Assembly: GCA_028687375.1 (NCBI GenBank)
Contig: JAQUAG010000022.1
Coordinates: 1 to 35,796, forward strand
Source: Arcobacteraceae bacterium
Lineage (GTDB): Bacteria; Campylobacterota; Campylobacteria; Campylobacterales; Arcobacteraceae
Length of the DNA stretch: 35,796 bases
Reading direction: 5' to 3'
Shown here: piece by piece, positions 10,200 to 35,741 of the stretch
How positions within the stretch are numbered: position 1 is the stretch's first letter
Layout: each line of letters starts with the position of its first letter
The notes under the pieces: generated by a model
Told to the model about the DNA's origin: nothing
The model's input: the letters and a program-made list of their open reading frames with translations, nothing else
The model's database searches: none
Translations under genes and position numbers: made by a program

Positions 10200-11381
10200 T
10201 TATCTCCTTGTTCTAAAACTATTATTGAGTCGTAATTTTAAGCCATAATGATATGACTTTGTGATGATTTTTTTCAGCAAATATGCCATATAACCTTTGA
10301 GCTTAAGAGTATCAAACATCGTTCCTACGGCGTATTCTCCACCAAGAGCCACAAACATTCCATCCATTTTTCCATCGTATTTTATAAGTGGTTGATTATC
10401 AAGTTTTCTTAAAATATTTTTTGCTGCTACACTTGCACACTGTTCTGCTATTTGAGAAGTTGGAGGGAGTATATCTCCTTTTAGATTTCGTATCTCTGCA
10501 CAATCTCCAATCGCGTAAATATCTTCAAATCCTTCAACTCTTAAATAACTATCAACTATAAATTGATTTAATCTATTTTTCTTAACATCGAAAATATCAT
10601 TGATACCAATAGCTCGGATTCCACCTGTAAAAATCATAAAATCAAACTCTAAATTTTCCCCAGTTTTAAGATGAACTGTATTTTGTGAAACACTATCTAT
10701 AAAAGAGTTTGTCATCACTTTTACACCAAGGTCATCAAGTCTAATCAGTGTATTTTTGACAATATAACTATCCATTCCATTTAAAATCGAATCATAAGCC
10801 TCAATAAGATAGATATGAATATTTCCCTTTTTTATCCCAATACTATTGATAAATTTTTGTGATATATACGCCATCTCAGCAGCTATTTCAACTCCACTAA
10901 GCCCTGCTCCACCTATGATAATATTAAACTCTTTATGGTCACTATTTTTAACTTTTTTATAAATTATCTCTTCAAATTGCGTCTTAAACTGATATGCACG
11001 ACTAAGCACTTTCACCCCATGAGAAAACTCTTTAAGCCCTTCTATAAAAGCTGGGAAATTTGTTTTTGCTCCAGTTGCTATTATCAATTCATCATAAAGG
11101 ATAGTTTGCCCTTTTGTTTGGATAGTTTTATTATTTGTATCAATTCCTATACACTCATCTTGTATAAAATGAATATCCCTAGAAAAACCTTCACACCAAC
11201 TTTTAATATCAACTGTAATATCACAAATATCAAAATTACCAGCAATATATCCATAAGCCTCCGTTTGAAGATAATGATAAGGATTTTTATCAATAAGTGT
11301 TATCTCTACATTTTTTCTTTTTACTAACTTTTCAACAGCTCGCAGGCCTCCATAACCAGCACCAACAATTACAACTTTCAA
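10200..11381 (-). CDS. NDH-2-like FAD/NAD(P)-dependent oxidoreductase
   Basis: A 393-aa two-dinucleotide-binding-domain flavoprotein. The FAD Rossmann motif GAGYGG is at residues 7-12, the NAD(P)-binding motif GGAGLSGVEIAAE sits mid-protein, and the C-terminal FAD contact YAIGDCAE is clear. The overall pattern fits type II NADH:quinone dehydrogenase; a basic, hydrophobic tail (GYMAYLLKKIITKSYHYG) could bind the membrane peripherally. It overlaps the waaF stop by 4 bp, so it is transcribed with the LPS core genes, an unusual place for a respiratory enzyme. It lacks a plant-type [2Fe-2S] ferredoxin domain, so it is not the DdhD/RfbI reductase expected for the dideoxyhexose pathway. Confidence 0.85.
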   Translation of the reverse strand: MKVVIVGAGYGGLRAVEKLVKRKNVEITLIDKNPYHYLQTEAYGYIAGNFDICDITVDIKSWCEGFSRDIHFIQDECIGIDTNNKTIQTKGQTILYDELIIATGAKTNFPAFIEGLKEFSHGVKVLSRAYQFKTQFEEIIYKKVKNSDHKEFNIIIGGAGLSGVEIAAEMAYISQKFINSIGIKKGNIHIYLIEAYDSILNGMDSYIVKNTLIRLDDLGVKVMTNSFIDSVSQNTVHLKTGENLEFDFMIFTGGIRAIGINDIFDVKKNRLNQFIVDSYLRVEGFEDIYAIGDCAEIRNLKGDILPPTSQIAEQCASVAAKNILRKLDNQPLIKYDGKMDGMFVALGGEYAVGTMFDTLKLKGYMAYLLKKIITKSYHYGLKLRLNNSFRTRR

Positions 11382-12334
11382 TCCATTTCCTTTATTTTAT
11401 TTAATACATCTTTTGCTTTTATCTCTTTCATACATTGATGATAAACATTTCCTTTTAAGGGACACTCTCTTTTCATACAAGGCATACAAGAAAAATCTTT
11501 TTTAACAATCACACTTTTTTCATTTTTCCATTGGGATGTTTCAGTAAACTTTGTTGGTCCAAAGATACAAATTGTAGGTATTCCAAAAGCAGCTGCAAGA
11601 TGCATTGGTCCGCTATCATTTGTAATAAACAAATCAAGATTGGCAATTTTTTCAATAAGTTCTTCAACAGATGTTTTACCAGCTAAATTTTGATAATTTG
11701 TGATATTACTTCCTAAAAGTTCATCCTCAATATCTTTTGCCATATCAACTTCACCATTGCCCCCAAAAATCACCGTATCATACCCTTTTGAAAGCTCAAT
11801 AATCACTTCTGCAAACTCTTTTGGATACCATCTTTTAGCACTTCCATAAGTTGCCCCAGGATTGATTCCAAGGAGTAGTTTACTATTTTCTTTTTTTTCA
11901 AATCCATAAATTTTTAGCTTTTGTGGAGTTGTTTCGAGATTTAAACTTCTATTTATAAAATCGTTATACCGTATCACTAAATGGATCTCATCGTGCGTCA
12001 ATCTTTTATATCTATATTTTTCACTTGCATCTACAAACCATAATAAAAAGGTAGAGGTAAAATTTCTTCTAAAACTAAAAGCGATATCAACATCACCTAC
12101 ACTTTTAGCTATTTTATAAAGATTCGTATACCGATTTCCACTTTTTTTAGAGTCATCAATTATCAATCTTTTTACATTTGGATGATAAGTAAAAATTTTT
12201 GTACTTACAAATGAACCTAATATCGTAAGCTCACAATTTGGATAAATCGAGACAATATTTTCAATTGCAGGTGTTGCCATAACAGCATCTCCAAGCCAAG
12301 TTGGTATCTCTATAAATATTCTTTTATTTTCCAT
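11378..12334 (-). CDS. waaF: ADP-heptose:LPS heptosyltransferase II (GT9)
   Basis: A GT-B glycosyltransferase that adds the second heptose to the LPS inner core on the cytoplasmic face of the inner membrane. The N-terminal IPTWLGDAVMATPAIENI is typical of WaaF, as are the C-terminal donor-site motif TNDSGPMHLAAAFGIPTICIFGPT (shown here as neighbouring pieces TNDSGPMHLAAAFG and IPTICIFGPT) and the cysteine-rich segment CMPCMKRECPLKG. The length of 318 aa is slightly short of the usual 340-350. It overlaps the upstream glycoside-hydrolase-like gene by 11 bp and the NDH-2-like gene by 4 bp. No waaC, hldE or gmhA lies in the window. Confidence 0.88.
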   Translation of the reverse strand: MENKRIFIEIPTWLGDAVMATPAIENIVSIYPNCELTILGSFVSTKIFTYHPNVKRLIIDDSKKSGNRYTNLYKIAKSVGDVDIAFSFRRNFTSTFLLWFVDASEKYRYKRLTHDEIHLVIRYNDFINRSLNLETTPQKLKIYGFEKKENSKLLLGINPGATYGSAKRWYPKEFAEVIIELSKGYDTVIFGGNGEVDMAKDIEDELLGSNITNYQNLAGKTSVEELIEKIANLDLFITNDSGPMHLAAAFGIPTICIFGPTKFTETSQWKNEKSVIVKKDFSCMPCMKRECPLKGNVYHQCMKEIKAKDVLNKIKEMD

Positions 12335-13412
12335 TTTGACTTTCTTCTACCATTTTCTTAAATTCATAAAATGCTTTTGTTTTTCGTATTTTCCCATCTC
12401 TATTATCAACCAGTCCATAACCAGCAGAAATTAGCTGATGCCAAAATACTTTTTGTACCTTTTGTGAATGTGCTACAATACTAAAATATTCTAGCATATA
12501 CGTAGCATAGTCATCTTCACTCACACACTCTTTCTCACTTGTAGGAGCATATGGAGCAGTTCCTTTAAGTGGCCAGTTTGTTTCAGTAATATATATTTTA
12601 TCCTCACATTTTGATGAACTTTTTACAATCGTATCCAAAAACTCTACTTTATTTTGCAGGTCAAAAAGCCCATACTGAGTATTTTTTGGACTACCACGAC
12701 GGTCAACATATAATAAACTAGCAACTTTATCAAAATGAATTTTAAACCCATTAAACAATGTTCGAATCGTAAAGTGATACTCAAAATCTATCACGGAAGT
12801 TCCTATAAGTTTGAGTGTTGGAAAGTTTTCATCTCTCACTTGTTGGATAATTTCAAAGAAACTCAAGTACTCTTCAATCGTCACAAATCCCCATTTAATA
12901 CGGTTTATTGCATTTCCTATCATAAACTCATTTGTGATTGAACTAAACTTTTCAAAAACTATTTTTATATCTTTTTGTAAAAGTTCTTTATCTTCAATAT
13001 GTGCCCTACTTTGGATAATCGTGAGCATTATCTCTTTATCATCTCCCTTGTGCTTGTCACTCTCTTTGAGAAATGATTTTACAAACTCTAGATATTTATC
13101 AATATGTTCCATATCAGATAAAAAGAATCGTATCTGCAAAGATTTTACACCAAGTTCTTCTATAAGTCCAACTTGCTCCATACCCTTATCAAGATTGACA
13201 CAAATTCCATAAAAAGAGATATTTTGAGAAGTAGGAGATTGTATTTTTGATTTCAATAAAAACTTTATAAATAGATAAGGAAACCAAATAAAATTTGTCA
13301 AAAGTAATTTAAAAAAATCAAATATTCTCCCCCTCCGTAAAGCTTTTTTATCTGTTTTTTTTAAAACTTCAGGTTGATCTGAGGGATGCCACGCATAGTT
13401 TGAAAATATCAT
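12324..13412 (-). CDS. Glycoside-hydrolase-like (clan GH-A-type) protein of LPS core cluster
   Basis: A 362-aa protein with no firm family assignment. From residue 65 it reads like a TIM barrel: regular strand/helix alternation, a strand-4-like segment FMIGNAINRIKWG (164-174) and a strand-7-like ITETNWPLKG with Glu277 in the place of a retaining-hydrolase nucleophile, then KVFWHQL. The position where clan GH-A enzymes carry the acid/base Glu (Asn-Glu) shows Asn167-Ala168, so the acid/base may be absent. A hydrophobic, basic N-terminal stretch (29-55) suggests membrane association rather than a cleaved signal. It shares 4 bp with the GT9 gene upstream and 11 bp with waaF, hence a role in LPS core assembly or trimming is inferred. 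Confidence 0.6.
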   Translation of the reverse strand: MIFSNYAWHPSDQPEVLKKTDKKALRRGRIFDFFKLLLTNFIWFPYLFIKFLLKSKIQSPTSQNISFYGICVNLDKGMEQVGLIEELGVKSLQIRFFLSDMEHIDKYLEFVKSFLKESDKHKGDDKEIMLTIIQSRAHIEDKELLQKDIKIVFEKFSSITNEFMIGNAINRIKWGFVTIEEYLSFFEIIQQVRDENFPTLKLIGTSVIDFEYHFTIRTLFNGFKIHFDKVASLLYVDRRGSPKNTQYGLFDLQNKVEFLDTIVKSSSKCEDKIYITETNWPLKGTAPYAPTSEKECVSEDDYATYMLEYFSIVAHSQKVQKVFWHQLISAGYGLVDNRDGKIRKTKAFYEFKKMVEESQNGK

Positions 13413-14281
13413 AAAAACTCTACAACTTTTTTTAATACATCATCTACTTTTATACTATTAATTGATTGATATTTATCTCCAACAAGAAAAACTTTTTGAT
13501 TGTTAGAATTAAACCATTCTTTTAAAGTACCCTCAACCCTTCCATTTTCATTACTAAATAAAATAATTGTTTTTACATCACTAATTTGTGCAAAATGAGA
13601 TGGTCCACAATCATTAGCAATAACAATACTAGAACTTTGAACTATCTCTTGAACATCTACAATATTTTTATCATAATAAATCTCAAAGCTTTTATCAATC
13701 TGATCTTGAAATTGACTTTCTTTCTTTCCTAAAAGAAAGCAAACTTTATAATGATAATTCGTTGTTAAAATATTAGCCAATTCTAGATAATTATTTATAC
13801 CCCAAATTTTGTTATCACCTCCTGCACCAGGAATTATTAAAATTCGTTTTTGTTTAGGTATTGATTCGAGTTCAAGCCTTTTCCCTAATAAATTCAAATA
13901 ATTTTGTGCTCTGTAAACTTGTGTATCATATAACTCAACTTTTGTAAATAATAAACTTGATATTAAGCTTTTAAAACCTATTTTTTCACAAAAATTTGTA
14001 AATGCTATCATCGCATTTATAAACAACGAACTTTTTCTTAAATTAACTGTTAAACTTGCTTTACATCGTATGTACACTAACATTGTACTAAACTTACTTT
14101 TTTCGATTTTAATCTCATCAATGAGGTTTAGATCTAGTAATATACTAGATATTTCATTTGGTGAAAAAATTATTAATTTACTATTAGGATATAACTTTTT
14201 CAACTCTTTCAAAAGGGGAATATGTACTATTTGAGCTCCCAAAAAGTCTCGATTTTGCATAAAAACAACTATATTCTTCAT
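13409..14281 (-). CDS. GT9-family (heptosyltransferase-like) glycosyltransferase
   Basis: A 290-aa GT-B protein. The N-terminal FLGAQIVHIPLLKELKKLYP matches the GT9 acceptor domain opening, and the C-terminal IVIANDCGPSHFAQ is the GT9 donor-binding signature (usually SGPMH). A strand GAGGDNKIWG marks the start of the second Rossmann domain. It probably transfers heptose or another sugar from a nucleotide donor to the LPS core; the acceptor cannot be deduced. It starts in a 4-bp ATGA overlap with the GT4 gene upstream and ends in the same way with the hydrolase-like gene. It is shorter and more divergent than the WaaF-like protein nearby. Confidence 0.78.
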   Translation of the reverse strand: MKNIVVFMQNRDFLGAQIVHIPLLKELKKLYPNSKLIIFSPNEISSILLDLNLIDEIKIEKSKFSTMLVYIRCKASLTVNLRKSSLFINAMIAFTNFCEKIGFKSLISSLLFTKVELYDTQVYRAQNYLNLLGKRLELESIPKQKRILIIPGAGGDNKIWGINNYLELANILTTNYHYKVCFLLGKKESQFQDQIDKSFEIYYDKNIVDVQEIVQSSSIVIANDCGPSHFAQISDVKTIILFSNENGRVEGTLKEWFNSNNQKVFLVGDKYQSINSIKVDDVLKKVVEFL

Positions 14282-15321
14282 TTTAATTCCCCATAAATTT
14301 TCTCATATCTTTCACACATCATCTCTATAGAAAAATTCTCGATTGTTTTATAAGCTTCATTTGCCAATTTTTCCCTCAAAGTTTGATTAAGATATATTTT
14401 TTCTATAGCTTCAAAGATTGCTTGAGCATTTTTAACTTCTACTAAAAGACCATTTTTATTATCTTTAATAATATCTGGTATTCCCCCAATATCTGAAGCC
14501 ACTATAGGCACTTTTGATTGCATAATATCAAGTAAAATAGAGCCCAATCCTTCATTAAGAGATGGAAATGCAAATCCATCCATACATGCTATATAGTCAC
14601 CAACATTATCAACAAATCCTTCAAAAGTTATATTTGATAAATTTGCTGATTGATTACGATAATTTTCTTCATCTTTACCACGACCTAGAAAAATAAAGTG
14701 AATCTTTGGATATTTTTTTTCTATCATCTTTGCAGCTTCTATTAAATAATACTGCCCTTTGTGAGTATTATCAAGCTCTCCAATATTTCCTATAACAAAT
14801 TTACCTTCAAATCTTTTTTTGAGCATTTTTACATTTTCTTCATCTATTTGAAGTTTTGTATATGCACTTGGTATGATTTTTATTTTTATTTTTGGACTAA
14901 TTTTCAAAGTTTCATATTCTATTGCTTTTGAAAGGACAACAACACAAAATGCATTTTCATACATCTTCTTATTAAAAAAATTATTTTTGATAGAATTATC
15001 AACTCGTCTTGTGATAATATAGGGAATACGATAAATCATATTTACAAAATAAGCTAATTGTGCCGCTTTTGTCTCATGTGCATGTACTATTGACGCTCCA
15101 TTGAAAACATTTAAGTGGAAAAGATATGGTTTACCTATCGCTATTATTTCAAGATTTGAAAGTTGTAGTTTTTCTAGCCTAGATGCCAAATCTGAGTTTT
15201 GTCTCACAATCAGCTTTTGATGATAGTCTTTTTTTGATAACTCTTCGATAAGCAACATTGTCTGTCGCTCACCACCTCTGAAGCCTTTTGCTAGATTTAT
15301 ATGCACTATATTTTTTTGCAA
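14278..15321 (-). CDS. GT4-family glycosyltransferase
   Basis: A 347-aa GT-B retaining glycosyltransferase. The N-terminal domain has HINLAKGFRGGERQTMLL, including the GGxE-type motif near the acceptor site; the C-terminal Glycos_transf_1 domain shows IGNIGELDNTHKGQYYLIEA and the E-x7-E donor motif within PSLNEGLGSILLDIMQSK, followed by VPIVASDIGGIPDII. Such enzymes add hexoses or heptoses to LPS core on the cytoplasmic side. It shares 16 bp with the GT2 gene upstream and 4 bp with the GT9 gene downstream, consistent with translational coupling in one core-assembly group. Donor and acceptor are unknown. Confidence 0.85.
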   Translation of the reverse strand: MQKNIVHINLAKGFRGGERQTMLLIEELSKKDYHQKLIVRQNSDLASRLEKLQLSNLEIIAIGKPYLFHLNVFNGASIVHAHETKAAQLAYFVNMIYRIPYIITRRVDNSIKNNFFNKKMYENAFCVVVLSKAIEYETLKISPKIKIKIIPSAYTKLQIDEENVKMLKKRFEGKFVIGNIGELDNTHKGQYYLIEAAKMIEKKYPKIHFIFLGRGKDEENYRNQSANLSNITFEGFVDNVGDYIACMDGFAFPSLNEGLGSILLDIMQSKVPIVASDIGGIPDIIKDNKNGLLVEVKNAQAIFEAIEKIYLNQTLREKLANEAYKTIENFSIEMMCERYEKIYGELK

Positions 15322-16055
15322 TTTATATACCTTTTTGTATATCTAAAAAATTTACCATTAAAATTTGACATAGCGATCACAAATCCTCTCCAACCATCTA
15401 AAAATCCAAGCTGTAAGAAATAAGTCTTCAAAAATGCCCATTTAGCTTTTGCCAAAACAACTAAAAAGTAACAAGTTTTTTTATCTTTTGAAGCTAAATC
15501 AGAATATTTGATTATCTTAATCAAAAACTGATTTATATCATCGACAGCATTATGCTTAAAGCTATTGTTTAAGGTTGTTTTTTGTGTATTTTTTGTTATT
15601 TCTATGAATTCGTGTACCATATTTTGATTGAATTGGTGACTATTTTTATTATAAAGTCTTACTAAATAATCTTTTCCCCAACCACTATATTTCACCTCTT
15701 TCCCCAAGAAATAGTTATCTCTTTTGATAACAAAAACCTCTTTTGTATTTTCTAGATTTATCTCTTTTAGTTCTAGAAGCAATTGTGGTAAGATTACTTC
15801 ATCACTATCAAGTGATAATATCCAATCATTTGAAGCATAAGATGATGCTTGATTCTTTGTAGGTCCAAAACCCGAAAAATCACCATCTACTATTTTCACA
15901 TTTAAATACTCTCTAGCTATTGTTTCAGTATTGTCTGTTGAATTATTTATATATAAAACAACTTCATTAAAGTCTACTAAACTATCCAAAGTTTCTTTTA
16001 TAGTTTTTTGTGCATCTTTTGCAATAATAACTGGCGTAATATTTTTAATCAACAA
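15306..16055 (-). CDS. GT2-family glycosyltransferase (WaaE/LgtF-like)
   Basis: A 249-aa single-domain GT-A enzyme. Motifs in order: IIAKDAQKTIKETLDSL, LYINNSTDNT, FGPTKNQASSYASNDWIL and the metal/nucleotide-binding LSLDSDEVI; a basic segment YSGWGKDYLVRLYNKN follows. This pattern is that of the WaaE/KdtX and LgtF group, which put glucose on the first heptose of the inner core. The C-terminal portion is enriched in aromatic and basic residues and may touch the membrane. Its start overlaps the WaaP-like gene by 11 bp and its end overlaps the GT4 gene by 16 bp. The exact sugar is inferred from family resemblance only. Confidence 0.82.
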   Translation of the reverse strand: MLIKNITPVIIAKDAQKTIKETLDSLVDFNEVVLYINNSTDNTETIAREYLNVKIVDGDFSGFGPTKNQASSYASNDWILSLDSDEVILPQLLLELKEINLENTKEVFVIKRDNYFLGKEVKYSGWGKDYLVRLYNKNSHQFNQNMVHEFIEITKNTQKTTLNNSFKHNAVDDINQFLIKIIKYSDLASKDKKTCYFLVVLAKAKWAFLKTYFLQLGFLDGWRGFVIAMSNFNGKFFRYTKRYINCKKI

Positions 16056-16779
16056 CTTTTTTCCCTTTCAACCTTTTTTTAAAATTTTTAAAATTTTTAT
16101 GTTTTTGAGAATATTTCAAAGCTCTTGAAATACAATCTATCTCTTCTTCTTTTACAAGTTTTGCATATTCTTTTATGATAATTTTCAAATCTTCATCTTT
16201 TGCCCAAAGTTTTGCAAAATTTTCAAGGCATTCATCTAAACTAAGCTCTTTAAAAGTCATCCGATTAATATCTACTATTTTAAAAATATACTTATTCTCT
16301 TCTTTTTTAATAAGTATATTTCCAGGACTATAATCTTGATGATAGATACCATTTTGATGTAAATCATAAGTAAACTTTGCAAACTGTTTAAATACTAGAT
16401 TTTTATCTTCAAAATTAATATCTAATAAAGGCTCTCGTATAGTAAAATCATATTTAAAATGTTCGCTTATAAAATAACTATCTTCAACCAAACCAAACTT
16501 AGTAAACTCCACATATCCTATTGGTTTAGGTACAAAATTAATAATCTTTATACTATTTTCGTATGATTTTTTAGCTTTACTATCTTTAAAGAAAGCGTAA
16601 ACAACTTTATTTATAAGATGTGGCACTTTGAATGATTTAATTACCAAGTCTTGAGAATTATAGTTGATAATTTTAATCTCATTTCTTGCCTTGTGAATAG
16701 AATTAGTAGCATCAAAAAAATAGATACGAATCTGCTGTAAAAATTCAAGAAATAAATTATTTTGAGTTACTATTTTCAT
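16045..16779 (-). CDS. WaaP/InaA-like lipopolysaccharide core kinase
   Basis: A 244-aa protein-kinase-fold enzyme. The catalytic loop reads HQDYSPGNIL, with His147, Asp149 and Asn154; the metal-binding segment follows as IVDINR with Asp170. An N-lobe Lys within LVIKSFKVPH (residue 48) is the likely ATP-binding lysine. Members phosphorylate heptose or Kdo of the LPS inner core, a change that stabilises the outer membrane. The position among core glycosyltransferases supports an LPS substrate rather than a protein one. It begins 4 bp after the GT52-like gene and overlaps the GT2 gene by 11 bp. The precise target residue (Hep or Kdo) is unknown. Confidence 0.75.
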   Translation of the reverse strand: MKIVTQNNLFLEFLQQIRIYFFDATNSIHKARNEIKIINYNSQDLVIKSFKVPHLINKVVYAFFKDSKAKKSYENSIKIINFVPKPIGYVEFTKFGLVEDSYFISEHFKYDFTIREPLLDINFEDKNLVFKQFAKFTYDLHQNGIYHQDYSPGNILIKKEENKYIFKIVDINRMTFKELSLDECLENFAKLWAKDEDLKIIIKEYAKLVKEEEIDCISRALKYSQKHKNFKNFKKRLKGKKVVD

Positions 16780-16783
16780 TGTT

Positions 16784-17776
16784 TTAAATTTCTAATTCTT
16801 GAAGAGTAATAATTTTATCTTTTTCTATTGAAGAATAATAATCTTTTAATGATATATCAAAATATTTCTTATCAATCATCATATCTCTAGTTAATTCTAT
16901 ATGCTTAAATTCTGTTTGTTCTAAAAGAAAAGAAAGAGTTGTTAAAGCTGTTGAAAAAAATGAAAAAACTTTATCAGGTACAATTCTTTCTTGAATAAAA
17001 TAAACTTCAATTGGCACATCTATAAACTTAATTTCAAATAAATCATTCTGAAGTTTTTTAATTTCTTTCCTCATAACGTTTGTTTCAGCTCTATGAGGAA
17101 TATAAATAAACTTCTGTTTATATTTCTTTGATAATTTAAGTAGAACTTTTTTATAAATATCTAAATCTAAAAATCTTTCAAGTGGTTGTCCAAGAAAATA
17201 TATCAAATCATCTTTCTTACTTTCAAAAAAATATGTTTTTTTGAAATAACTAAGTGTATTTTTTATAATAACATTGTTAAAAGGCTTTAAGTCAAAATAA
17301 GTAAAAAAATTAATTGTATCTTTTATTTTTATCTTTAATCCAAAAAATAAAAATCTTAGCATCCTCGAATCATAGCTATTTATACGATTATTTTTAAAAA
17401 AATTGTTATAAAATCTTACTGTTGCAGTCCCATCATCAAGATAAAAAACATTATTTTTCATAACATTTGCAATAATGGCTCTTTGAATACTTCCAAAATT
17501 ACCAAAAAATAAATAATTATAGCTATCCACTTTTAATCTTTTAATTAATTTAACATAATCAAAAAATTTAGATTTTTTTCCATCTTCTAACTCAATAATT
17601 TCTAACCAATTATAATTATTTAACAACTCTTTAATTTGTTTAGTATTAGTATCTAAAGAATTGTAAATAAGTATAACAACATTATTTGTTAATTGAAAGT
17701 AATTAATAGCTTCCAATGCATTTATAACTTGAATCGGTGATCTTATTATAAACAAATTTTTTAACTTCATACTCAT
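16784..17776 (-). CDS. GT52/polysialyltransferase-like glycosyltransferase, candidate Leg transferase
   Basis: A 330-aa protein. Three motifs shared by GT-B bacterial sialyltransferases occur in order: the acidic D/E-D/E-G motif as Asp114-Asp115-Gly116 in FYLDDGTATV, an HP-like motif as His228-Arg229 in YIPHRAE, and the S-S/T motif as Ser275-Thr276 in FFSTAL. A GQPLE segment (197-201) also recalls GT52. Such enzymes move sialic-type sugars from CMP donors. The gene lies 4 bp after legF, whose product makes the CMP donor, so transfer of legionaminic acid to the LPS core is the natural inference. The start has a good AAGGA site seven bases upstream. The gene is visibly more A/T-rich than its neighbours, suggesting transfer. 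Confidence 0.62.
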   Translation of the reverse strand: MSMKLKNLFIIRSPIQVINALEAINYFQLTNNVVILIYNSLDTNTKQIKELLNNYNWLEIIELEDGKKSKFFDYVKLIKRLKVDSYNYLFFGNFGSIQRAIIANVMKNNVFYLDDGTATVRFYNNFFKNNRINSYDSRMLRFLFFGLKIKIKDTINFFTYFDLKPFNNVIIKNTLSYFKKTYFFESKKDDLIYFLGQPLERFLDLDIYKKVLLKLSKKYKQKFIYIPHRAETNVMRKEIKKLQNDLFEIKFIDVPIEVYFIQERIVPDKVFSFFSTALTTLSFLLEQTEFKHIELTRDMMIDKKYFDISLKDYYSSIEKDKIITLQELEI

Positions 17777-17780
17777 TAAT

Positions 17781-18473
17781 TTATCCTTGTATCATAAATT
17801 CTGCTATCTTAAAATCAATCTCTTCATCAATATCAATAGAACATTTTCTATCCATCACATAAGCAAAAATATTATCTTTCAAAAAAAAGCTTTTTTCCTC
17901 TAAAATCTTCTCAGTCTTACATATATAAATAGCACCATTTAATCTATAATATTTATCCAAATCTTGACTTCTTTTATTTAAAATCTCATCTTTCAAAAAA
18001 CTATTCATATTTCCACCTTGTGGTAATGTATTACTCCAAAGTGGACTATGATCCATTTCACATACACCAATCACAGCATCTGCATTTCTTTGTTCTAAAA
18101 GTTCAATAGCTTCATCAATATGATTTTCATTCCTAAGTGGACTTGTAGGTTGTAGTAAAACTATATAATCATATTTTTCAAGATTGTCAATAGTGTGTTT
18201 TATAGTATCAAAAGTTGTGGCTGTGTCACTTGCAAGTTCATCAGGTCGTTTAATAGTTTCAGCTCCAAACTTTTTTGAAATATTCAAAATTTCATCATCA
18301 TCACTAGTAACAACAACTTTATCCACATATTTACTATTTAATCCAGCTTCTATACTCCAAGCGATTAATGGCTTACCACATAAGTCAAGTACATTTTTTC
18401 TAGGCAATCTTTTACTACCACCTCTTGCAGGGATTATAGCTAAAAATGTTTTACTATTAATCATTTTTTTCAT
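17781..18473 (-). CDS. legF: CMP-legionaminic acid synthetase (NeuA/PtmB family)
   Basis: A 230-aa cytidylyltransferase. The signature IIPARGGSKRLPRKN lies at residues 13-27, followed by VVTSDDDEIL, LLQPTSPLRN and the metal-binding end CSIDIDEEIDF. The enzyme joins a nonulosonic acid to CMP. Substrate choice between Neu5Ac, pseudaminic and legionaminic acid cannot be read directly, but legB, legC, legI and legG upstream make Leg by far the likeliest. The ORF starts at an ATG within the end of the GtrC-like gene; the ATG at 18464 (fourth codon) is an alternative. In C. jejuni the homologue lies close to ptmE; here the two are parted by eight inserted genes. Confidence 0.88.
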   Translation of the reverse strand: MKKMINSKTFLAIIPARGGSKRLPRKNVLDLCGKPLIAWSIEAGLNSKYVDKVVVTSDDDEILNISKKFGAETIKRPDELASDTATTFDTIKHTIDNLEKYDYIVLLQPTSPLRNENHIDEAIELLEQRNADAVIGVCEMDHSPLWSNTLPQGGNMNSFLKDEILNKRSQDLDKYYRLNGAIYICKTEKILEEKSFFLKDNIFAYVMDRKCSIDIDEEIDFKIAEFMIQG

Positions 18474-20953: not shown

Positions 20954-21324
20954 TTTTCCAATCCCCCTTTAAACACATAATATTTATTCAATACAAAAGA
21001 TATAATAGCACTTGGAAAAGTAGCTATTAATCCAGCTAAATATTCATCAAAGCCAAAATCCTTAAATACTTTTATCAACACAATATTTACTATAAATACA
21101 AGACCATAAACACCAAAAAATTTAATAATTAATTTGTTATCAATCGAATTAAATACATATTTACCAATAGTCTTAAAATTAAATAAAACACCTAAAACAG
21201 TGGCGAAAAAAACGGCTAAAATATAATGGAAACCTATAAATAAAAACAGAGCATACAATCCGTATCCAACAACTGTATTAATAACTCCAACTAATATAAA
21301 ATTAACTATTTGTTTTTTAAGCAC
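20950..21324 (-). CDS. GtrA-family small flippase-like membrane protein
   Basis: A four-span membrane protein of about 124 aa. It opens with LKKQIVNFILVGVINTVVGYGLY, which in pieces (FILVGVINTVVGYG) is the GtrA signature, and ends with FVLNKYYVFKGG, also typical. GtrA proteins are thought to help flip polyprenyl-phosphate sugars to the periplasm. The start chosen is the GTG at 21324, preceded by an AGAGG ribosome site; a TTG at 21345 would add seven atypical residues. It overlaps the ddhC stop by 8 bp and gtrB by 4 bp, tying the flippase to dideoxysugar synthesis at the level of translation. Confidence 0.82.
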   Translation of the reverse strand: MLKKQIVNFILVGVINTVVGYGLYALFLFIGFHYILAVFFATVLGVLFNFKTIGKYVFNSIDNKLIIKFFGVYGLVFIVNIVLIKVFKDFGFDEYLAGLIATFPSAIISFVLNKYYVFKGGLEK

Positions 21325-27208: not shown

Positions 27209-28255
27209 TTAAAAAACTTCCATATATTCTTCATTTGCTTTTTTATATTCTTCGATTCTCCCAATATCAAGCCAATATTCTCTAAGGGGAAATGATATGG
27301 CATTTTGTTTTTCACTTATGATTTTTTCAAAAAGTGTCGGCATATCATAAAATTCATTTTCTGGAATGTACTGTAGGACATCAGGGCTTAGCATATAAAT
27401 ACCAGCACTCACAAAAAACTTATGTGTAGGTTTCTCTTCAATTGATAGTATATGGCTTCCATCAATATTCACAACACCATAAGGCACTTGAAAGTCATAC
27501 TCTCTTACACACATTGTCCCCATAGAGTTATTTGCTATATGAAAATCGTGTAAATGCTCATAGTTTACATTTGTAAGTAAGTCACCATTCATCACAAAAA
27601 AAGGCTCTGTTGGTTTTTCTTTTAGAAGACTCAAGGCTCCTGCTGTTCCCATCCTTTGTTCTTCTAAAATATACTCTATATTTACTCCAAAACTACTTCC
27701 ATTACCAAAATAGTCTTGGATGATGTGTGACTTATAGTTGACACACATCACTATATTTCCATATCCATATTCTGCGAATTTTTCTACGATAGTTTGCAAA
27801 ATTGGTTTATTACCTACTTTGAGCATAGGTTTTGGAGTGTTTTCTGTAAGTGGTCGCAGTCTTGTTCCAAGACCTCCTACCATAAGAATCACTTTGTTTG
27901 TCTTTCCTTTTGGTTTTATAAGTTCTTCTATCTCTTGAATCCCTAAAATTTTCCCATTATCGTCAACGATTGGTATTTGATGCAGTTTTTTAGAAAGTGC
28001 AAGTTGTAAAATTTCCTCTTTTGTATCACTTATTTTTGCAATAGTAGGTGTTTTAAAAATAATAGACTCTATAGAACTATTTAAATCAAGCCCTTTCAAA
28101 AGACCTCTTCGTATATCTCCATCGGTTAATGTTCCCAATAACTTATCATTTTCATCAACTATCAATGCTATTTGCATCGCTCCACCATCAATGATTTGTA
28201 ATGCTTCTTTTATGGTTGCATTTACAGTAAGTTTTATATTTTGTATATTTTTCAT
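27209..28255 (-). CDS. ptmE: CBS-domain sugar nucleotidyltransferase PtmE (GDP-glucosamine branch of Leg pathway)
   Basis: A 348-aa fusion. Residues 1-118 form two CBS repeats (TLTDGDIRRGLL and HQIPIVDDNGKILG), which sense adenine nucleotides in other proteins. From about 122 a nucleotidyltransferase domain follows: LMVGGLGTRLRPLTENTPKP, EEQRMGTAGAL, MNGDLL. In C. jejuni PtmE (Cj1329) forms GDP-glucosamine at the entry of the legionaminic pathway, making it distinct from the UDP route to sialic acid. It begins 1 bp after legG, the same gene order as in C. jejuni (legI-legG-ptmE apart from the insertion). The companion genes ptmF, ptmA and pgmL are not in the window. Confidence 0.87.
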   Translation of the reverse strand: MKNIQNIKLTVNATIKEALQIIDGGAMQIALIVDENDKLLGTLTDGDIRRGLLKGLDLNSSIESIIFKTPTIAKISDTKEEILQLALSKKLHQIPIVDDNGKILGIQEIEELIKPKGKTNKVILMVGGLGTRLRPLTENTPKPMLKVGNKPILQTIVEKFAEYGYGNIVMCVNYKSHIIQDYFGNGSSFGVNIEYILEEQRMGTAGALSLLKEKPTEPFFVMNGDLLTNVNYEHLHDFHIANNSMGTMCVREYDFQVPYGVVNIDGSHILSIEEKPTHKFFVSAGIYMLSPDVLQYIPENEFYDMPTLFEKIISEKQNAISFPLREYWLDIGRIEEYKKANEEYMEVF

Positions 28256-28256: not shown

Positions 28257-29441
28257 TTAACCTTTTAAATCATAAAATGACTTTTTTAATATATTTTGTA
28301 AATCTACTTTTTTTAGTTCTTCAATAATTTTTTGACTTGCACATCCATTTCCATAAGGATTCTCACAGCTTTGTAATACTAATTGAAACTCTTTTGAATA
28401 TAGTTTGACAAAAGCTTGATGAATCGAACTTTTATTTGGTTTGCAATCAATCACACTAGCAGCTTTTATACGTCCCTTTTGTCTATCTCCAATATTAATA
28501 GTTCCTATTTTAAAACTTGGAGTTTCAGCAAGTCCACTTGAGCTATTCCCCACCATAGCATCTACAAACTGTAAAGCACTCAAATATCTTAGTTGTCCTA
28601 AAGAAGTAAATCCTACAGATTTATAAGCATTCTTAGCTACATATTCATCAATCATTTGATTTATAATTCTTCCATCTGTATCACTATTTGCTTTTGTAAA
28701 GATAATATTTGTATCTTCTAGCTTATCAATAGCTTCTAAAAGTTCTTGAAACTGCTCTTTTGCTGTACTGTTTTCTAAAGTTACAGGATGAAAAGTGACT
28801 AAAATATTTTTTTTGTTTAATTTAAAATCTATCGATTTTTCAAATTCTTCTTTTGTTAAAAGTTTTAATCTTTTGATATTTTCAATCCCCATCCCACCTA
28901 CATTAAAAACTCTATTTGGATGTTCACCTAGTTGAATAACTCTATTTTTATATTCTTCTGTGCCAGTAAAATGCAAGTGAGACATTTTTGTAATACTGTG
29001 ACGAATTGACTCATCAAAAGCACCTTCAGTTGTCTCTCCACCATGAAGATGAGCGATAGGAATACGAGCTATCATAGCAGCACTTGTAGCACTAAATATT
29101 TCATATCTATCTCCAAGAACGATAACAATATCTGGTTTTAACTCTTCATAACTTTCCGCAAAAGATATTTGAGCCAACCCCATAGACTTCGAGATACCAA
29201 TAGAAGTATCAGAAGACAGAAGCATCTCTATTTTTTTATCTATTTTAAACTCTTTTTCTATCTCTTTATAAGTCAATCCAAATTCTGGACTTAAATGCAT
29301 ACCAGTAACTATAAGTTGAAGTTCTAAATCCTGTTCCTCTTCAATCTCTTTCATAAGCCAATAAAGTAGTCCATATTCAGCTCTTGTACCAGTTACTACA
29401 CATATTTTTGTCCTCGTTCCTGTGGAATTACATCTAGTCAT
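28257..29441 (-). CDS. legG: Hydrolysing 2-epimerase of the Leg pathway (NeuC family)
   Basis: About 394 aa, UDP-GlcNAc-2-epimerase fold. It removes the nucleotide and inverts C2 of the diamino sugar, giving 2,4-diacetamido-2,4,6-trideoxymannose for LegI. Motifs: VVTGTRAEYGLLYW, VLGDRYEIF, HLHGGETTEGAFDESIRH, and MVGNSSSGLAETPSF in the C-terminal domain. The start overlaps the yhcG stop (ATGACTAG, 8 bp). Homologues normally begin within a few residues of the KICVVTG strand; here about ten extra residues (TRCNSTGTRT) come first and no nearer in-frame start exists. A TTG at 29459 would make the extension longer. The odd N-terminus may be a scar of the yhcG insertion. Confidence 0.9.
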   Translation of the reverse strand: MTRCNSTGTRTKICVVTGTRAEYGLLYWLMKEIEEEQDLELQLIVTGMHLSPEFGLTYKEIEKEFKIDKKIEMLLSSDTSIGISKSMGLAQISFAESYEELKPDIVIVLGDRYEIFSATSAAMIARIPIAHLHGGETTEGAFDESIRHSITKMSHLHFTGTEEYKNRVIQLGEHPNRVFNVGGMGIENIKRLKLLTKEEFEKSIDFKLNKKNILVTFHPVTLENSTAKEQFQELLEAIDKLEDTNIIFTKANSDTDGRIINQMIDEYVAKNAYKSVGFTSLGQLRYLSALQFVDAMVGNSSSGLAETPSFKIGTINIGDRQKGRIKAASVIDCKPNKSSIHQAFVKLYSKEFQLVLQSCENPYGNGCASQKIIEELKKVDLQNILKKSFYDLKG

Positions 29442-30483
29442 TGTTTTTTTCACTTTCAAGTAAATTTTCTAATCTTTGGATTATTTCATTTGGTGTTGGC
29501 AATAAATCTTTGAATTCATAGGGTAAAGATTCAGTGAGCTTATAAGTAGCTACTCCTATTGGCTGATTACTCTCTTTGAGTGAATATTCCACTGTTGTTC
29601 GTTTTTTCTCTTTGCAGATAATGATACCGATAGATGGATTTTCATCAGGCAGTTTTATAGTGTCATTGAGCACTGAAAGATAGAAATTCATTTTCCCATC
29701 ATACTCTGGTTTGAACTTACCTATTTTTAGCTCAATAGCTATAAGAGACTTTAATCTTCGATGGTATAAAAGGATATCTATGAAATATTCTTCATCATCC
29801 ACTTCTAGTTTATATTGATTTCCTAAAAAGGCAAAATCGCTACCCATCTCATTTAAAAATTCTCTTATTTTATTGATAAGTCCTATTTCAAGTTCTCTTT
29901 CGTTGTATTCATTACTCAACTCTAAAAAGTCAAAATTATATTCATCTTTTACGGCTAGTTTTGCTTGATGTTGGTATTTTTCTACTAATGTATTATCAAA
30001 ATTTGTTTGATTTAAAAGAAATTTCTCATACGATTTATTTTCTATATGATTTATCAATACATCTTTTGTCATACCAAATTTAATAGTAGTTTTGATATAA
30101 AATTCTCGTTCTAAATTATCTTTGCATTTTTGAAAAATAACAACATTTTTAGTCCAACTAATTTCTCCAACCATTGGTTGGAGTTTTTCATTTTTATAGT
30201 ATTCAAGATAAAACTGTCTCATATTCCAAAGATTCTGAATACTAAACCCCTTTACTCCCACAAACTCTTTTTGAAGTTCATATGAAAGATTTTGTACTAC
30301 TGATTTTCCCCAGCCATATTTCTCTTGTTTTTCTACGATATTTTTGCCAATCTCCCAATAAAGATTTATAAGCTCTTTATTTACAGCCTTTAAGGCTTCG
30401 TATTGGGAAGAGAGTATTTTAGTTTTTATATCTTTTACAAATTTTGTAAAATTTTCATCTATAGTTGAAATTTCTTTTTTCAT
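29434..30483 (-). CDS. YhcG/DUF1016-family PD-(D/E)XK nuclease-like protein
   Basis: A 349-aa protein in two parts. Residues 10-150 match the DUF1016 N-terminal region (LINLYWEIGKNIVEKQ, GWGKSVVQNLS, GFSIQNLWNMRQFYLEY). The C-terminal domain from about 190 carries the nuclease core Asp236 in EYFIDILLYHRR and Glu251-x-Lys253 in IAIELKIGKFKPE. The family is frequent near restriction-modification and other defence genes; its precise action is not settled. Here it lies between legI and legG, genes normally adjacent, with a 4-bp overlap at its start and 8 bp at its end. No transposase, repeats or partner gene were seen. A role in sugar synthesis is unlikely. Confidence 0.85.
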   Translation of the reverse strand: MKKEISTIDENFTKFVKDIKTKILSSQYEALKAVNKELINLYWEIGKNIVEKQEKYGWGKSVVQNLSYELQKEFVGVKGFSIQNLWNMRQFYLEYYKNEKLQPMVGEISWTKNVVIFQKCKDNLEREFYIKTTIKFGMTKDVLINHIENKSYEKFLLNQTNFDNTLVEKYQHQAKLAVKDEYNFDFLELSNEYNERELEIGLINKIREFLNEMGSDFAFLGNQYKLEVDDEEYFIDILLYHRRLKSLIAIELKIGKFKPEYDGKMNFYLSVLNDTIKLPDENPSIGIIICKEKKRTTVEYSLKESNQPIGVATYKLTESLPYEFKDLLPTPNEIIQRLENLLESEKNND

Positions 30484-31481
30484 ATCAACTCATCTTCACC
30501 ATAGTCTTTGAAAGCGACACTTCCAACTATTTCATCCCATCTCATTGGATTTATCCCATTTCCAGGTCTTTTTATAGTGATATTTTCTTCGCTTAATTTA
30601 TCGCCTTTTTTTATTTCAGTTTTTGCAACTATAGATTTTCTAGCTATTTGCATATTTGGAATTTCACTTTTTGATGGTTTTTTGATACTACTTCCAAGAG
30701 CTAATTCTATATTTCGTATAGCTTTTACCATCGCTTTTAATTCATCTGGTTCAAGACTTGCCTTATGGTCTGGTCCATCCATAGTTTTATCTAAAGTAAA
30801 ATGCTTTTCAATACAACTTGCCCCCATAGCAACAGCAGCAATATCTACTTCTATTCCTAAAGTATGGTCACTATACCCAAAAGGAATATCAAAGGTATTG
30901 CCAATCGTGACCATAGCTTTTAAATTTACATCTTCCATAGGGGTTGGGTACATAGTATTTGCATGTAAAACTGTGATATTTTCTTTTTTAGTTCCTGAAT
31001 TTATCAAAATATTTAAGGCATCTTCAATTTCACCTAATCTAGCCATCCCAGTTGAAAGAATCACTTTTTTACCCAGTTTTCCTATATGTCTGAGGTATGG
31101 TAAATTTGTAATTTCACCACTTGGTATTTTAAATATTTCAAGCCCGAGAGTCTCTAAAAGCTCTATGCTATCGTGGTCAAAGGGAGTAGATAAAAATAGT
31201 ATATTTTTAGTTTTACAATAAGAAATAAGTTCTTTGTGTGCTTCTTCATTTAATTCTAACTTTTTAACCATTTCAAATTGTGTTTCTTGATTGTTATTTG
31301 TATTTTCTATCTGATAATCAGCTTTTTTAGCATCTTTTGATATGCAAAGTTCTGTTTTAAAAGTTTGAAATTTAACAGAATCAACACCTGCTTGAACCGC
31401 AACATCTATCAATTTTTTCGCTAATTCAATACTTCCATTATGATTTACACCTGCTTCTGCTATTATAAATACTTTTTTCAA
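30480..31481 (-). CDS. legI: Legionaminic acid synthase (NeuB family)
   Basis: A 333-aa enzyme condensing phosphoenolpyruvate with the LegG product to form legionaminic acid. The TIM-barrel NeuB domain begins IIAEAGVNHNGSIELAKKL and includes VDSVKFQTFK, STGMARLGEI, ANTMYPTPMEDVNL and GYSDHTLGIE; near the end a SAF-type antifreeze-like domain (about 272-333) starts at ARKSIVAKTEIKKGDKL. The length is normal for NeuB/LegI. It overlaps the MaoC-like gene by 4 bp upstream and yhcG by 4 bp downstream. Choice of Leg rather than sialic acid rests on the companion legB, legC and ptmE genes. Confidence 0.92.
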   Translation of the reverse strand: MKKVFIIAEAGVNHNGSIELAKKLIDVAVQAGVDSVKFQTFKTELCISKDAKKADYQIENTNNNQETQFEMVKKLELNEEAHKELISYCKTKNILFLSTPFDHDSIELLETLGLEIFKIPSGEITNLPYLRHIGKLGKKVILSTGMARLGEIEDALNILINSGTKKENITVLHANTMYPTPMEDVNLKAMVTIGNTFDIPFGYSDHTLGIEVDIAAVAMGASCIEKHFTLDKTMDGPDHKASLEPDELKAMVKAIRNIELALGSSIKKPSKSEIPNMQIARKSIVAKTEIKKGDKLSEENITIKRPGNGINPMRWDEIVGSVAFKDYGEDELI

Positions 31482-31912: not shown

Positions 31913-32572
31913 TTAACTTCTCCTTTTAATATTTTCTTTAGTAAATTCAATAGCTGGATTTCCAAAAACCACTTTACCTGCTAGCACACTTTTAGTTACA
32001 ACAGAACCAGCTGCAATAATTGAGCCTTTTCCAATCTTCAATGGTTTATTAGCTTTTCCTTGGTGAATTATTACTCCTGTGCCAATATAAACATCATCTT
32101 CAATTATTACATTACCATTACATTTTACAGATGGAGCCAAAGTTACATTATCACCTATAATACAATCGTGTGCAATATAGCTATATATATTTGCTTGAAA
32201 ATTCTTACCTATTTTAACATTTGAAGTTAATGTTACAAATGGACAAAGAATAGACCCCTCATCTATTTGAGATGATTTTGAAACAAATGAACTTTTATGA
32301 AAAATATTTGGAAAATTTACTCCTTTTGATTTTAATTCTAAATATATTTTACTTCTTAATTGATAATCTGCAATTGCAATAACTACATTATCATTTGCAG
32401 TAAAATTAAATTCTCTTTCATTTCCTAAAAAAGGAGCTTGATAGGAATACTTTTTATATTCTATTTCACTAATATCAAAGTAACCTTTAATTTTATAATC
32501 ACCATTATCTAAAGTATATTCTGTCACTTCACTAGCAAAGCCACTAGTTCCAATAATATATATTTCTTTCAT
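31913..32572 (-). CDS. legH: Left-handed beta-helix sugar N-acyltransferase (NeuD/PglD/LegH type)
   Basis: A 219-aa protein. The N-terminal Rossmann-like domain (IYIIGTSGFASEV) binds the sugar nucleotide; from about residue 95 hexapeptide repeats form the left-handed helix, with YSYIAHDCIIGD giving the likely catalytic His and later VYIGTGVIIHQG, IIAAGSVVTKSV and GNPAIEF. LegH/PglD enzymes acetylate the 4-amino group made by LegC. It follows legC in function, though the rhuM-like gene is wedged in between with a 4-bp overlap. The neighbouring MaoC-like hydratase raises the possibility that its acyl donor is not acetyl-CoA; residues deciding this cannot be judged by eye. Confidence 0.83.
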   Translation of the reverse strand: MKEIYIIGTSGFASEVTEYTLDNGDYKIKGYFDISEIEYKKYSYQAPFLGNEREFNFTANDNVVIAIADYQLRSKIYLELKSKGVNFPNIFHKSSFVSKSSQIDEGSILCPFVTLTSNVKIGKNFQANIYSYIAHDCIIGDNVTLAPSVKCNGNVIIEDDVYIGTGVIIHQGKANKPLKIGKGSIIAAGSVVTKSVLAGKVVFGNPAIEFTKENIKRRS

Positions 32573-33414: not shown

Positions 33415-34551
33415 TTAGATTCTCACACTACTTGGAATATTTACAACTCTTTCTTCAAGATATTTTGCATTTTTTAAATCTGTTTTTTGACAATCTTTAA
33501 ACATTTCAAGTTCATTCATAAGTTTCCAAATAGGTCGTGTCATCACACCATTTTTATTTGTAAATTCTAAAAATTCATTTCGTTGATTAATATCATCCAA
33601 TAAAACTGCTTGAAGCCAATAGTTTGATTTACACTTTTTTGGCTCTTCTATAAAAGTTATACTTTCATTTACAAAAAATTCTTTATATTGTGTTGCCAAA
33701 TCTCTTTTTGAAACTAAAAATTTTTCTAATTGTTCAAGTTGAGCAACTAAAAGGGCAGCGTTAATATTAGGAAGTCGATAGTTGTATCCTATCTCATCGT
33801 GTACATACTCATAAGGGTGTGGAATTTTTGCAGTAGTTGTCATATGTTTTACTCTTTTAGCTAATATTTCATCATCTGTAACGATAACTCCGCCACCACC
33901 TGAAGTTATGATTTTATTACCATTAAAAGAAAAAGCTCCTAGTTTTCCAAAAGTTCCTGTATGTTTATCTTTATAATAACTCCCTAAACTTTCCGCTGAA
34001 TCTTCAACTAGAATAACATGCCACATATCGCAAATCTCTTTTATCTCATCTATTCTACAAGGATGCCCAAAAGTGTGCATTGGGACACACGCTTTTATTG
34101 TTTTTCCAGTTGTTTTATTTATACACTTACTATCTTTGATTTCACAATTTATTTCTAAAAAGTTTTTCAAAGATTCAGGACTCAAACCCATCGTATCCAA
34201 ATCAACATCTACAAATATTGGCTTTGCTCCAATATAACTAATAGCATTACAAGTAGCGATAAATGTAAGTGGTTGAGTAATAACTTCATCATCTTTTTTC
34301 ACATCTGCTAACAATAAAGAAATGTGAAGAGCAGCTGTTCCATTTACAGTAGCTATTGCATATTTACTACCAACAGTTTTTGCGAATTCTTTCTCAAAAG
34401 TATCCACATATTTACCCACACTTGATACAAATGTAGAATCTATACAGTCATTGAGATATTTTTTTTCATTGCCAATAAATCTTGGTTCATGGAGAGGAAT
34501 AAACTCTTGAGTGTTAAAAATTTGTTTTATAAAATCAACTATTTTTTGCAT
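33415..34551 (-). CDS. legC: PLP-dependent 4-aminotransferase of the Leg pathway (DegT/DnrJ/EryC1)
   Basis: A 378-aa sugar aminotransferase that converts the 4-keto intermediate from LegB into the 4-amino sugar, with glutamate as donor. VNGTAALHISLLLADV binds the PLP phosphate, LVEDSAESLGSYY holds the ring-binding Asp, and the Schiff-base Lys213 lies in FSFNGNKIITSGGGG. The tail with NYWLQAVLL and MTRPIWKLMNEL fits LegC/PglE/PseC-type enzymes. It shares one base with legB (TAATG), as expected of consecutive steps, but is cut off from legH by the rhuM-like gene. Confidence 0.92.
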   Translation of the reverse strand: MQKIVDFIKQIFNTQEFIPLHEPRFIGNEKKYLNDCIDSTFVSSVGKYVDTFEKEFAKTVGSKYAIATVNGTAALHISLLLADVKKDDEVITQPLTFIATCNAISYIGAKPIFVDVDLDTMGLSPESLKNFLEINCEIKDSKCINKTTGKTIKACVPMHTFGHPCRIDEIKEICDMWHVILVEDSAESLGSYYKDKHTGTFGKLGAFSFNGNKIITSGGGGVIVTDDEILAKRVKHMTTTAKIPHPYEYVHDEIGYNYRLPNINAALLVAQLEQLEKFLVSKRDLATQYKEFFVNESITFIEEPKKCKSNYWLQAVLLDDINQRNEFLEFTNKNGVMTRPIWKLMNELEMFKDCQKTDLKNAKYLEERVVNIPSSVRI

Positions 34552-35741
34552 TACATCTTCCCATCAAGATATTTACCAGTTTCTTTATGTCCAAAATCTG
34601 GAATCATAGAAAAAAACTCTTTTACGATATCTTCTTTTGTCCATGTTAAATTTGATTTAAAGTTTTTGATTGTATTCTCAAAATGGTTCAACTTATCTTC
34701 ATCAAATAAAGCTTCATTTTTAATAATTCCAAGATTTTCAAATCTAGCCATATCTAAAACTTCTTTGTCTGTAAAAAACTCTTCAAAATCTTTTTCACCT
34801 GTCGTATCACTAGCAGTAAATAAACACGGCCATTTACCTTGAGCAGGTAAAGTGTTCGCTAATTCTCTTGCCTCATCTTCTGTTTCACATAAATAAGGTT
34901 CATAGCCAAGATTGTTTAAATATTTTACTGCAATATCAGCAAAAGTGATAAGATGTAAATTTTCACTAAGTTTTGGGAAAAATATATCTCTCTTTTCACC
35001 AAAAATACAAGACATAAGACAAAGTTCACCACTTTCTTGTGGAGTTACAAAGTATCTTTTTATATCATTTGGAGCAACTATAGGTTGATTTTTCTCTATT
35101 CTTTGATTAAATCCATGAAGTAAACTTCCATCACTAAAAGCTACATTTGCAAATCTAGCCATTGAGACATTTATTTGTTGAGATTTTCTCATTACAAACA
35201 TCTCCATAATTCTTTTACTTGCACCCATCATATTTACAGGATTTGCAGCTTTATCTGTACTTACACAAAAATATTTTTTAGTTCCATTTTCAATAGATTG
35301 TTGAAGTGTTTTATCTGTATTAAAAACATTTGTTTCAATCATTCGCATAAGAGTAAATGGGTCTTTTTCACTTCTTACATGTTTTAAAGCAGAAAGATTC
35401 AAAACATAGTCATATTTTCCATCAGCTTTAATAAAAGCATCATATTCGCTACTTCCAATATCAAGTGCAAAAGTAGCAAACTCACCGTCAATATATCCAA
35501 AACTACTTCGTATATCTCGAACAAGTTCAACCATATTGTTTTCAGAAATATCAACCACATGAAGTTTTTTAGGGTTTCTTTTAAATATCTCTTTTGTTAC
35601 AGCTTGACCAATACTCCCAGCTCCACCGATAACTAAAAATGTTGAATTTAATATTATTTCTCTTAGTATTTTCTCATTATTATTTATATCTTCACAGAAA
35701 AGTTCTTTTGTTCGACCTATTAAATTTAATATTTTATTCAT
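34551..35741 (-). CDS. legB: NDP-N-acetylglucosamine 4,6-dehydratase of the Leg pathway
   Basis: A 396-aa extended SDR of the FlaA1/CapD class. The NAD-binding motif GGAGSIGQAV is at about 39-48; VDISENNMVEL, LNLSALKHVRSEKDP and STDKAANPVNMMGASKR follow. The usual catalytic Tyr of Tyr-x3-Lys is Met172 (Lys176 kept), as in this dehydratase class. A C-terminal extension with GKWPCLFTASDTTGEKDFEEF is typical of the C. jejuni Cj1319 group, which acts on GDP-GlcNAc. It begins the operon as seen in the window; an AGGAA ribosome site stands before the start, 10 bp after a probable upstream gene end, so the promoter lies beyond the window. Confidence 0.92.
   Translation of the reverse strand: MNKILNLIGRTKELFCEDINNNEKILREIILNSTFLVIGGAGSIGQAVTKEIFKRNPKKLHVVDISENNMVELVRDIRSSFGYIDGEFATFALDIGSSEYDAFIKADGKYDYVLNLSALKHVRSEKDPFTLMRMIETNVFNTDKTLQQSIENGTKKYFCVSTDKAANPVNMMGASKRIMEMFVMRKSQQINVSMARFANVAFSDGSLLHGFNQRIEKNQPIVAPNDIKRYFVTPQESGELCLMSCIFGEKRDIFFPKLSENLHLITFADIAVKYLNNLGYEPYLCETEDEARELANTLPAQGKWPCLFTASDTTGEKDFEEFFTDKEVLDMARFENLGIIKNEALFDEDKLNHFENTIKNFKSNLTWTKEDIVKEFFSMIPDFGHKETGKYLDGKM

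Follow-up and report, generated by a model that had tools for sequence, protein, structure and literature searches.

The window, by which we mean the whole stretch of 35,796 nucleotides from an Arcobacteraceae bacterium (contig JAQUAG010000022.1), encodes between a legionaminic acid (Leg) pathway and a lipooligosaccharide (LOS) core locus a protein that we infer to be an active, CMP-Leg-dependent and inverting GT-B transferase directed at the LOS core, a reading that we consider rather likely. The protein belongs to a GT38-like clade in which the His-Pro (HP) motif of bacterial sialyltransferases is replaced by His-Arg (HR). An earlier note on this DNA had located the open reading frame correctly and omitted its strand, which is minus, the plus strand of 16784-17776 carrying many stops. 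The 330-residue translation contains Asp-Asp-Gly (114-116), His-Arg (228-229) and Ser-Thr (275-276) exactly where they had been described. The gene directly follows the one that had been called legF, starting 4 bases past the stop of the CTP_transf_3 cytidylyltransferase gene at 17781-18473, and a kinase-like gene follows 4 bases past its end. The gene and the codons discussed below, with the corresponding residues of the Mannheimia haemolytica GT38 enzyme MhPST, are as follows.

16784..17776, minus strand: candidate nonulosonic-acid (Leg) transferase of 330 aa, GT-B fold, GT38-like, based on the ORF, motifs, alignment and predicted structure
17729..17731, minus strand: Q16 codon, aligned with MhPST Q44 and kept in 29/31 proteins
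17429..17437, minus strand: D114-D115-G116 codons, D115 aligned with the MhPST catalytic base E153
17090..17095, minus strand: H228-R229 codons, H228 aligned with MhPST H291 and R229 at the Pro position of the HP motif
17006..17008, minus strand: codon of the invariant E257, the probable counterpart of the ribose-binding MhPST E323, one column off and beside a gap
16949..16954, minus strand: S275-T276 codons, aligned with MhPST S339-T340 (phosphate contacts)

Relatives of the protein occur in 4 of 60 related genomes, and a five-sequence profile found matches in 27 of 398 genomes sampled from the order. A scan of named genomes with alignment A1 yielded 14 loci, mostly from Campylobacterales (with Sulfurimonas, Sulfurospirillum and Arcobacter in their titles), plus one each in Balneolaceae, Spongiibacteraceae and Flavobacteriaceae; an earlier scan of named-genome contigs with the single window protein had found no relative. 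From 57 matching ORF rows we assembled a family alignment (A2) of 31 proteins, comprising the window protein and 30 relatives that are 22-47% identical to it, leaving out same-place repeats, fragments and weak rows (L028, L029, L030/L035, the second copy at L036, L049 and L032). All 31 proteins have [DE][DE]G, all 31 have HR and all 31 have Ser or Thr at position 275, while E257, T159, E22, A23 and F27 are invariant. Thus, the three-motif order of GT-B sialyltransferases with Arg for Pro, as pointed out in the earlier note, is kept across the family, and because of this conservation the motifs are not there by chance. Lys or Arg two positions before the motif His was seen in 0/31 proteins, the window protein having I226. 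Among the rows outside A2, the second copy at L036 has HR and the weak relative L032 has HP. An NCBIfam scan over the 31 members touched 3 families only, all at chance level. In locus L034 (105-2027) a relative is fused behind approximately 290 extra N-terminal residues and is followed by a second copy, and tandem copies also occur at L009 (1501-3499) and L036 (6001-7990), the second L036 copy being split across separate ORFs.

The fold comparison proposed in the earlier note was then carried out on a predicted structure. The AlphaFold2 model of the window protein, made from an input alignment of 14 sequences, has a mean pLDDT of 88.0 and a pTM of 0.85. Foldseek against the PDB placed MhPST at the top (5wcn, E 1.5e-12; 5wc6, E 5.4e-11), followed at ranks 3-5 by a Neisseria GT52 enzyme (E 5.8e-8 for 2yk5, to 4.1e-7) and then by epimerases and heptosyltransferases. 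VIA-align likewise favoured MhPST (Z 22.2, rmsd 4.9, 318 residues aligned, 21-22% identity); the next different enzymes were GT80 sialyltransferases, from Z 16.1 downwards, interspersed with other GT-B enzymes at about 14. The GT52 structures 2yk5-2yk7 were absent from the best 50 VIA rows, an absence that does not by itself exclude GT52. Since MhPST lies about 6 Z units above the next different enzyme, the protein is predicted to be of GT-B type, with GT38 clearly its nearest match.

Sequence comparisons point in the same direction at the level of the family. The GT38 model PF07388 matched 12/31 members at E up to 1, the best at 2.7e-12. When ten members were scanned singly, 4 matched at E up to 0.01, of which L040 (43.4 bits, residues 6-301) and L004 (32.8 bits, residues 21-270) exceeded the 23.3-bit cut-off, each covering a large part of the model. 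The window protein itself matched nothing in Pfam at E up to 1 (PF07388, PF01973 and PF06002 included), an NCBIfam scan of it gave nothing meaningful, and we found no PF07388 match in its own genome. PDB sequence searches with the window protein, with a profile of the 31-protein family and with relative L040 gave no credible match, and one with L079 was uninformative; the residue mapping was therefore routed through an MhPST-type relative. L077, a distant protein from Campylobacterota, is genuinely related to MhPST (phmmer E 3.1e-42), and an hhalign comparison of A2 with L077, L078 and the MhPST stretch returned E 1.5e-5 and a probability of 79.7 over 268 columns. This alignment pairs D115 with E153, H228 with H291, R229 with P292, S275/T276 with S339/T340, and Q16 with Q44. 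The residue roles in MhPST, where E153 is the catalytic base and others contact ribose and phosphate, are those given in PMC5517516; those residue numbers of that structure paper that were compared with the MhPST stretch showed the expected letters there, except for K69. Taken together, fold, mapped catalytic residues and the gene linkage described below give good support to the earlier proposal of a nonulosonic-acid transferase resembling GT-B bacterial sialyltransferases.

The family label needed revision. The earlier note had offered "GT52/polysialyltransferase", and the fold bears out the polysialyltransferase (GT38) half of it, whereas GT52 membership was rejected on sequence, with 0/31 members matching PF07922; in the fold comparison the GT52 structure ranks behind GT38. 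Own-genome searches for PF07922 and PF06002 gave no match either, but their controls were equally blank, so that these two results do not demonstrate absence. We further rejected membership of the Maf family (PF01973), which the window protein does not match and whose one match in the genome lies elsewhere, and of GT42 (PF06002), again for want of a match in the window protein. As for GT80, the HP motif is absent (HR instead). The evidence thus supports a GT38-like clade with His-Arg for His-Pro, moved away from GT52; we do not file it as GT38, because the window protein lies below the PF07388 cut-off and lacks the HP motif.

That motif change can be set against published work. According to Freiberger and colleagues (PMC2169525), HP is kept throughout GT38, GT52 and GT80 apart from a single HA case, and the P279A variant of NmB-polyST retains less than 10% of its activity. 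A 2026 paper (PMC12887879) describes a wider motif, (K/R)xHP, in which Pro packs on the cytosine and Lys/Arg usually bonds it. Both the (K/R) and the Pro are replaced in all 31 clade members, which suggests a different mode of CMP binding in the clade; probably, by this reasoning, either CMP or the sugar carboxylate is gripped differently. In further PF07388 matches from the phylum (L079, L092 and L082) the His lies in KPHxx or KPHP, and the motif is plainly His-Pro in L079 and L092. The HR clade, whose normally fixed active-site Pro is always Arg (31/31), has received little description; we recognised no paper on it in the open-licence PMC full text.

We next asked whether the family keeps company with nonulosonate genes. 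Across 26 genomes, the distance from a relative to NeuA/NeuB is no more than 5 kb at 17/29 places and no more than 300 bases at 7/29, against 2/44 and 0/44 for a control, the GT4 that neighbours the target in the window (best 44 of the rows listed), and at most 0.52/29 and 0.07/29 expected from gene density. The 29 places are 30 profile rows minus three (a fragment in G035, a weak row in G158 and the second G351 piece), plus two G002 places. For NeuB all 53 rows were used; for NeuA the list was cut at an E of about 2e-22, which left 38 rows, since weaker ones could be KdsB. These counts take places singly and ignore relatedness; on a tree of the 31 proteins, the near/none label switches at least 5 times and the Leg/Pse context at least 4 times, with context labels taken partly from phmmer likeness instead of NCBIfam. 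By NCBIfam the nearby synthases are PseI in L052, L055, L074, L070 and L072 and NeuB/LegI-like in L068, L058 and L059, with L054 just under the NeuB cut-off. Because Leg and Pse contexts both occur and alternate on the tree, the family appears to follow nonulosonic acids in general.

The donor identity is accordingly not fixed by the family, as relatives sit with Pse or Neu-like clusters. In the window, however, the cluster is a Leg cluster, and for this reason the donor is taken as Leg, so that the choice of Leg in the earlier note holds for the window context while relatives also sit in Pse clusters. LegC, NeuC/LegG, NeuB/LegI and NeuD-type genes are above cut-off and are accompanied by LegB-, PtmE- and LegF-like genes.

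17781..18473, minus strand: CMP-nonulosonate (CMP-Leg) synthetase of legF/neuA type, CTP_transf_3; 182 bits against the PseF equivalog, below its 205.7 cut-off
27209..28255, minus strand: PtmE-like sugar-1-phosphate nucleotidyltransferase (NCBIfam scan)
28257..29459, minus strand: NeuC/LegG-type 2-epimerase (TIGR03568, 498 bits, cut-off 236)
30480..31481, minus strand: NeuB/LegI-type synthase (TIGR03569, 519 bits, cut-off 400)
31913..32572, minus strand: NeuD/PglD-type acetyltransferase (LegH role), above the NCBIfam cut-off
33415..34551, minus strand: LegC family aminotransferase (TIGR04181, 571 bits, cut-off 420)
34551..35741, minus strand: 4,6-dehydratase (LegB role), below equivalog cut-offs

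Since the gene at 17781-18473 lies inside a Leg-type cluster, legF is a fair name for it, and the PtmE-like gene presumably serves the Leg activation step, as in the C. jejuni pathway. A MaoC-like dehydratase gene (31478-31912, minus strand) adjoins the NeuB/LegI gene, and a YhcG/DUF1016 nuclease gene (29434-30483) and a RhuM-family gene (32569-33414), both on the minus strand, lie between the biosynthetic genes of the Leg operon. A further row of minus-strand genes at 20950-27180 encodes a glucose-1-phosphate cytidylyltransferase, a CDP-glucose 4,6-dehydratase, an acetolactate-synthase-like TPP enzyme, an SDR and an RfbH-like DegT protein; it looks like a CDP-linked branched dideoxysugar pathway, which we take to be of the yersiniose type, and it adjoins GtrA, a GtrB-like GT2 and a 523-aa protein with no Pfam match.

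The likely acceptor is suggested by the genes on the other side of the target.

16045..16779, minus strand: kinase-like gene directly after the target, weakly of the Kdo/WaaP family
12324..16055, minus strand: further core-locus genes, namely GT2, GT4, GT9 and an unclassified 362-aa protein (Pfam and NCBIfam scans)
11378..12334, minus strand: lipopolysaccharide heptosyltransferase II, which marks the core locus (TIGR02195, 154 bits, cut-off 135)

The 362-aa protein (12324-13412, minus strand) is above no Pfam or NCBIfam cut-off and has homologues near the target in L037/L055, L038/L051, L056, L060 and L061. The genome's single Maf match (PF01973) is on another contig (C34), apart from the Leg cluster and together with a flagellin gene, PseI and PseF, and of the transferases adjoining the Leg genes the target is thus the strongest candidate. 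This flagellin/Maf/Pse cluster (L076, 8091-19470) also contains B12-binding radical SAM and sugar O-methyltransferase-like genes. PF04932 (O-antigen ligase/polymerase) was not matched in the 99.67% complete genome, while 9/14 control genomes had a match. The adjoining core genes, the separate Maf/flagellin/Pse cluster and the lack of a PF04932 match thus point to the LOS core over flagellin or an O-chain. Of the two targets envisaged in the earlier note, the core is therefore plausible on grounds of synteny, and an O-chain is less likely in a genome with no PF04932 match.

Several features of the data leave room for other readings. GT38 enzymes polymerise, so that a single-residue cap is an assumption; the window protein itself scores below PF07388; and HP is altered at a site known to be important in NmB-polyST (P279A, PMC2169525). 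In addition, nonulosonate genes are lacking within 5 kb at 12/29 places, some of them on short contigs but G115, G366 and G276 (13.6 kb) with ample flank. Legionaminic acid forms a homopolymer in the LPS of Legionella serogroup 1, and the closest solved fold, MhPST, is a polymerase. A processive enzyme that extends an LOS or capsule primer with an oligomer or polymer of legionaminic acid would fit these two points, as well as the report of Leg in Legionella serogroup 1 LPS in PMC11356810. We nevertheless regard it as unlikely: the target has 330 aa against 382 in the MhPST chain, its neighbours are of core type, PF04932 is unmatched, and mono-sialyltransferases have the same fold. We judge about equally improbable a nonulosonic-acid transferase with another acceptor, such as an undecaprenyl-linked O-unit, a capsule or a glycoprotein glycan. 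The Leg and Pse transferases of Tannerella target an S-layer O-glycan (PMC6388019), and in 16 of the 20 loci that have NeuA/NeuB within 5 kb, core-type genes are missing from the surrounding 8 kb, although flanks vary and some contigs are short; against this, the core locus follows the target at once in the window, and the kinase-like core gene also adjoins it in L051, L055 and L056 (3/32 loci besides the window).

Two further alternatives were weighed. A transferase for a different CMP-sugar, for example a GT99/GT107-type retaining Kdo transferase, one of which matched GT38 mainly in its C-terminal domain (PMC12887879), would suit the weak resemblance of the adjacent gene to Kdo kinases, but the NeuA/NeuB linkage, the full-length GT38 match and the conserved DDG base make it very improbable. 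More improbable still is a GT52 sialyltransferase, for which the third Foldseek rank of 2yk5 and the common motif order speak, and which is countered by the PF07922 result and the better GT38 match.

In the preferred reading, the CMP-Leg-dependent LOS-core transferase, the upstream legF-type gene product would supply CMP-Leg (Leg probably being Leg5Ac7Ac), and Leg would be transferred with inversion onto a sugar of the LOS core built by the downstream genes. By analogy, the enzyme probably works like a GT38/GT80 inverting transferase: as in MhPST, D115 would serve as the base, the CMP phosphate would be held and stabilised by H228 and S275/T276, and E257 would contact the ribose. R229 would stand in place of the cytosine-packing Pro, with the usual Lys/Arg of (K/R)xHP lost (I226). 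More tentatively, we suggest that the HR clade could form a separate, unclassified GT family scattered in Campylobacterales and serving Leg/Pse (perhaps Neu-like) sugars, in which the invariant Arg would re-make the CMP-donor site and which would cap LOS independently of Maf and flagella.

Enzymes that attach Leg and Pse are poorly known, and a 2024 paper calls information on legionaminyltransferases "very limited" (PMC11356810); a clade linked to Leg and Pse genes thus offers candidates for assay and for glycan making. Moreover, with His-Arg throughout, it departs from a motif reported to be kept, one exception aside, across GT38, GT52 and GT80 (PMC2169525), and so provides a test of the role of that Pro.

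Compared with known systems, Maf flagellin glycosyltransferases also use CMP-Pse or CMP-Leg but form the PF01973 family, with the genome's own copy in the flagellin/Pse cluster. The pseudaminyltransferase KpsS1 (GT118), compared by description only, likewise moves a nonulosonic acid but is retaining and KpsC/WbbB-related (PMC12887879). The Tannerella forsythia enzymes GtfS and TFUB4_00887, also compared by description only, resemble the target as non-Maf, cluster-encoded transferases of Pse and a Leg derivative with D/E-D/E-G, and differ in their 442-445 aa, HP and DXD motifs and S-layer glycan target (PMC6388019). The Neisseria LOS sialyltransferase (GT52, 2yk5) shares the GT-B fold and motif logic and acts on LOS, but is a weaker structural match than GT38, and the target lacks a PF07922 match. 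GT80 sialyltransferases (PmST1 and Photobacterium enzymes) are GT-B proteins with the same motif logic and the second-best VIA matches, but are only 10-15% identical to the target in the VIA rows and have the HP motif. The closest counterpart is MhPST: the target is shorter, has HR instead of HP with no Lys/Arg two positions before, lies below PF07388 and belongs to a family linked to Leg and Pse genes, yet it shares the MhPST fold over 318 of its 330 residues, with the D/E-D/E-G base, the His, the Ser-Thr and the N-terminal-loop Gln all in register.
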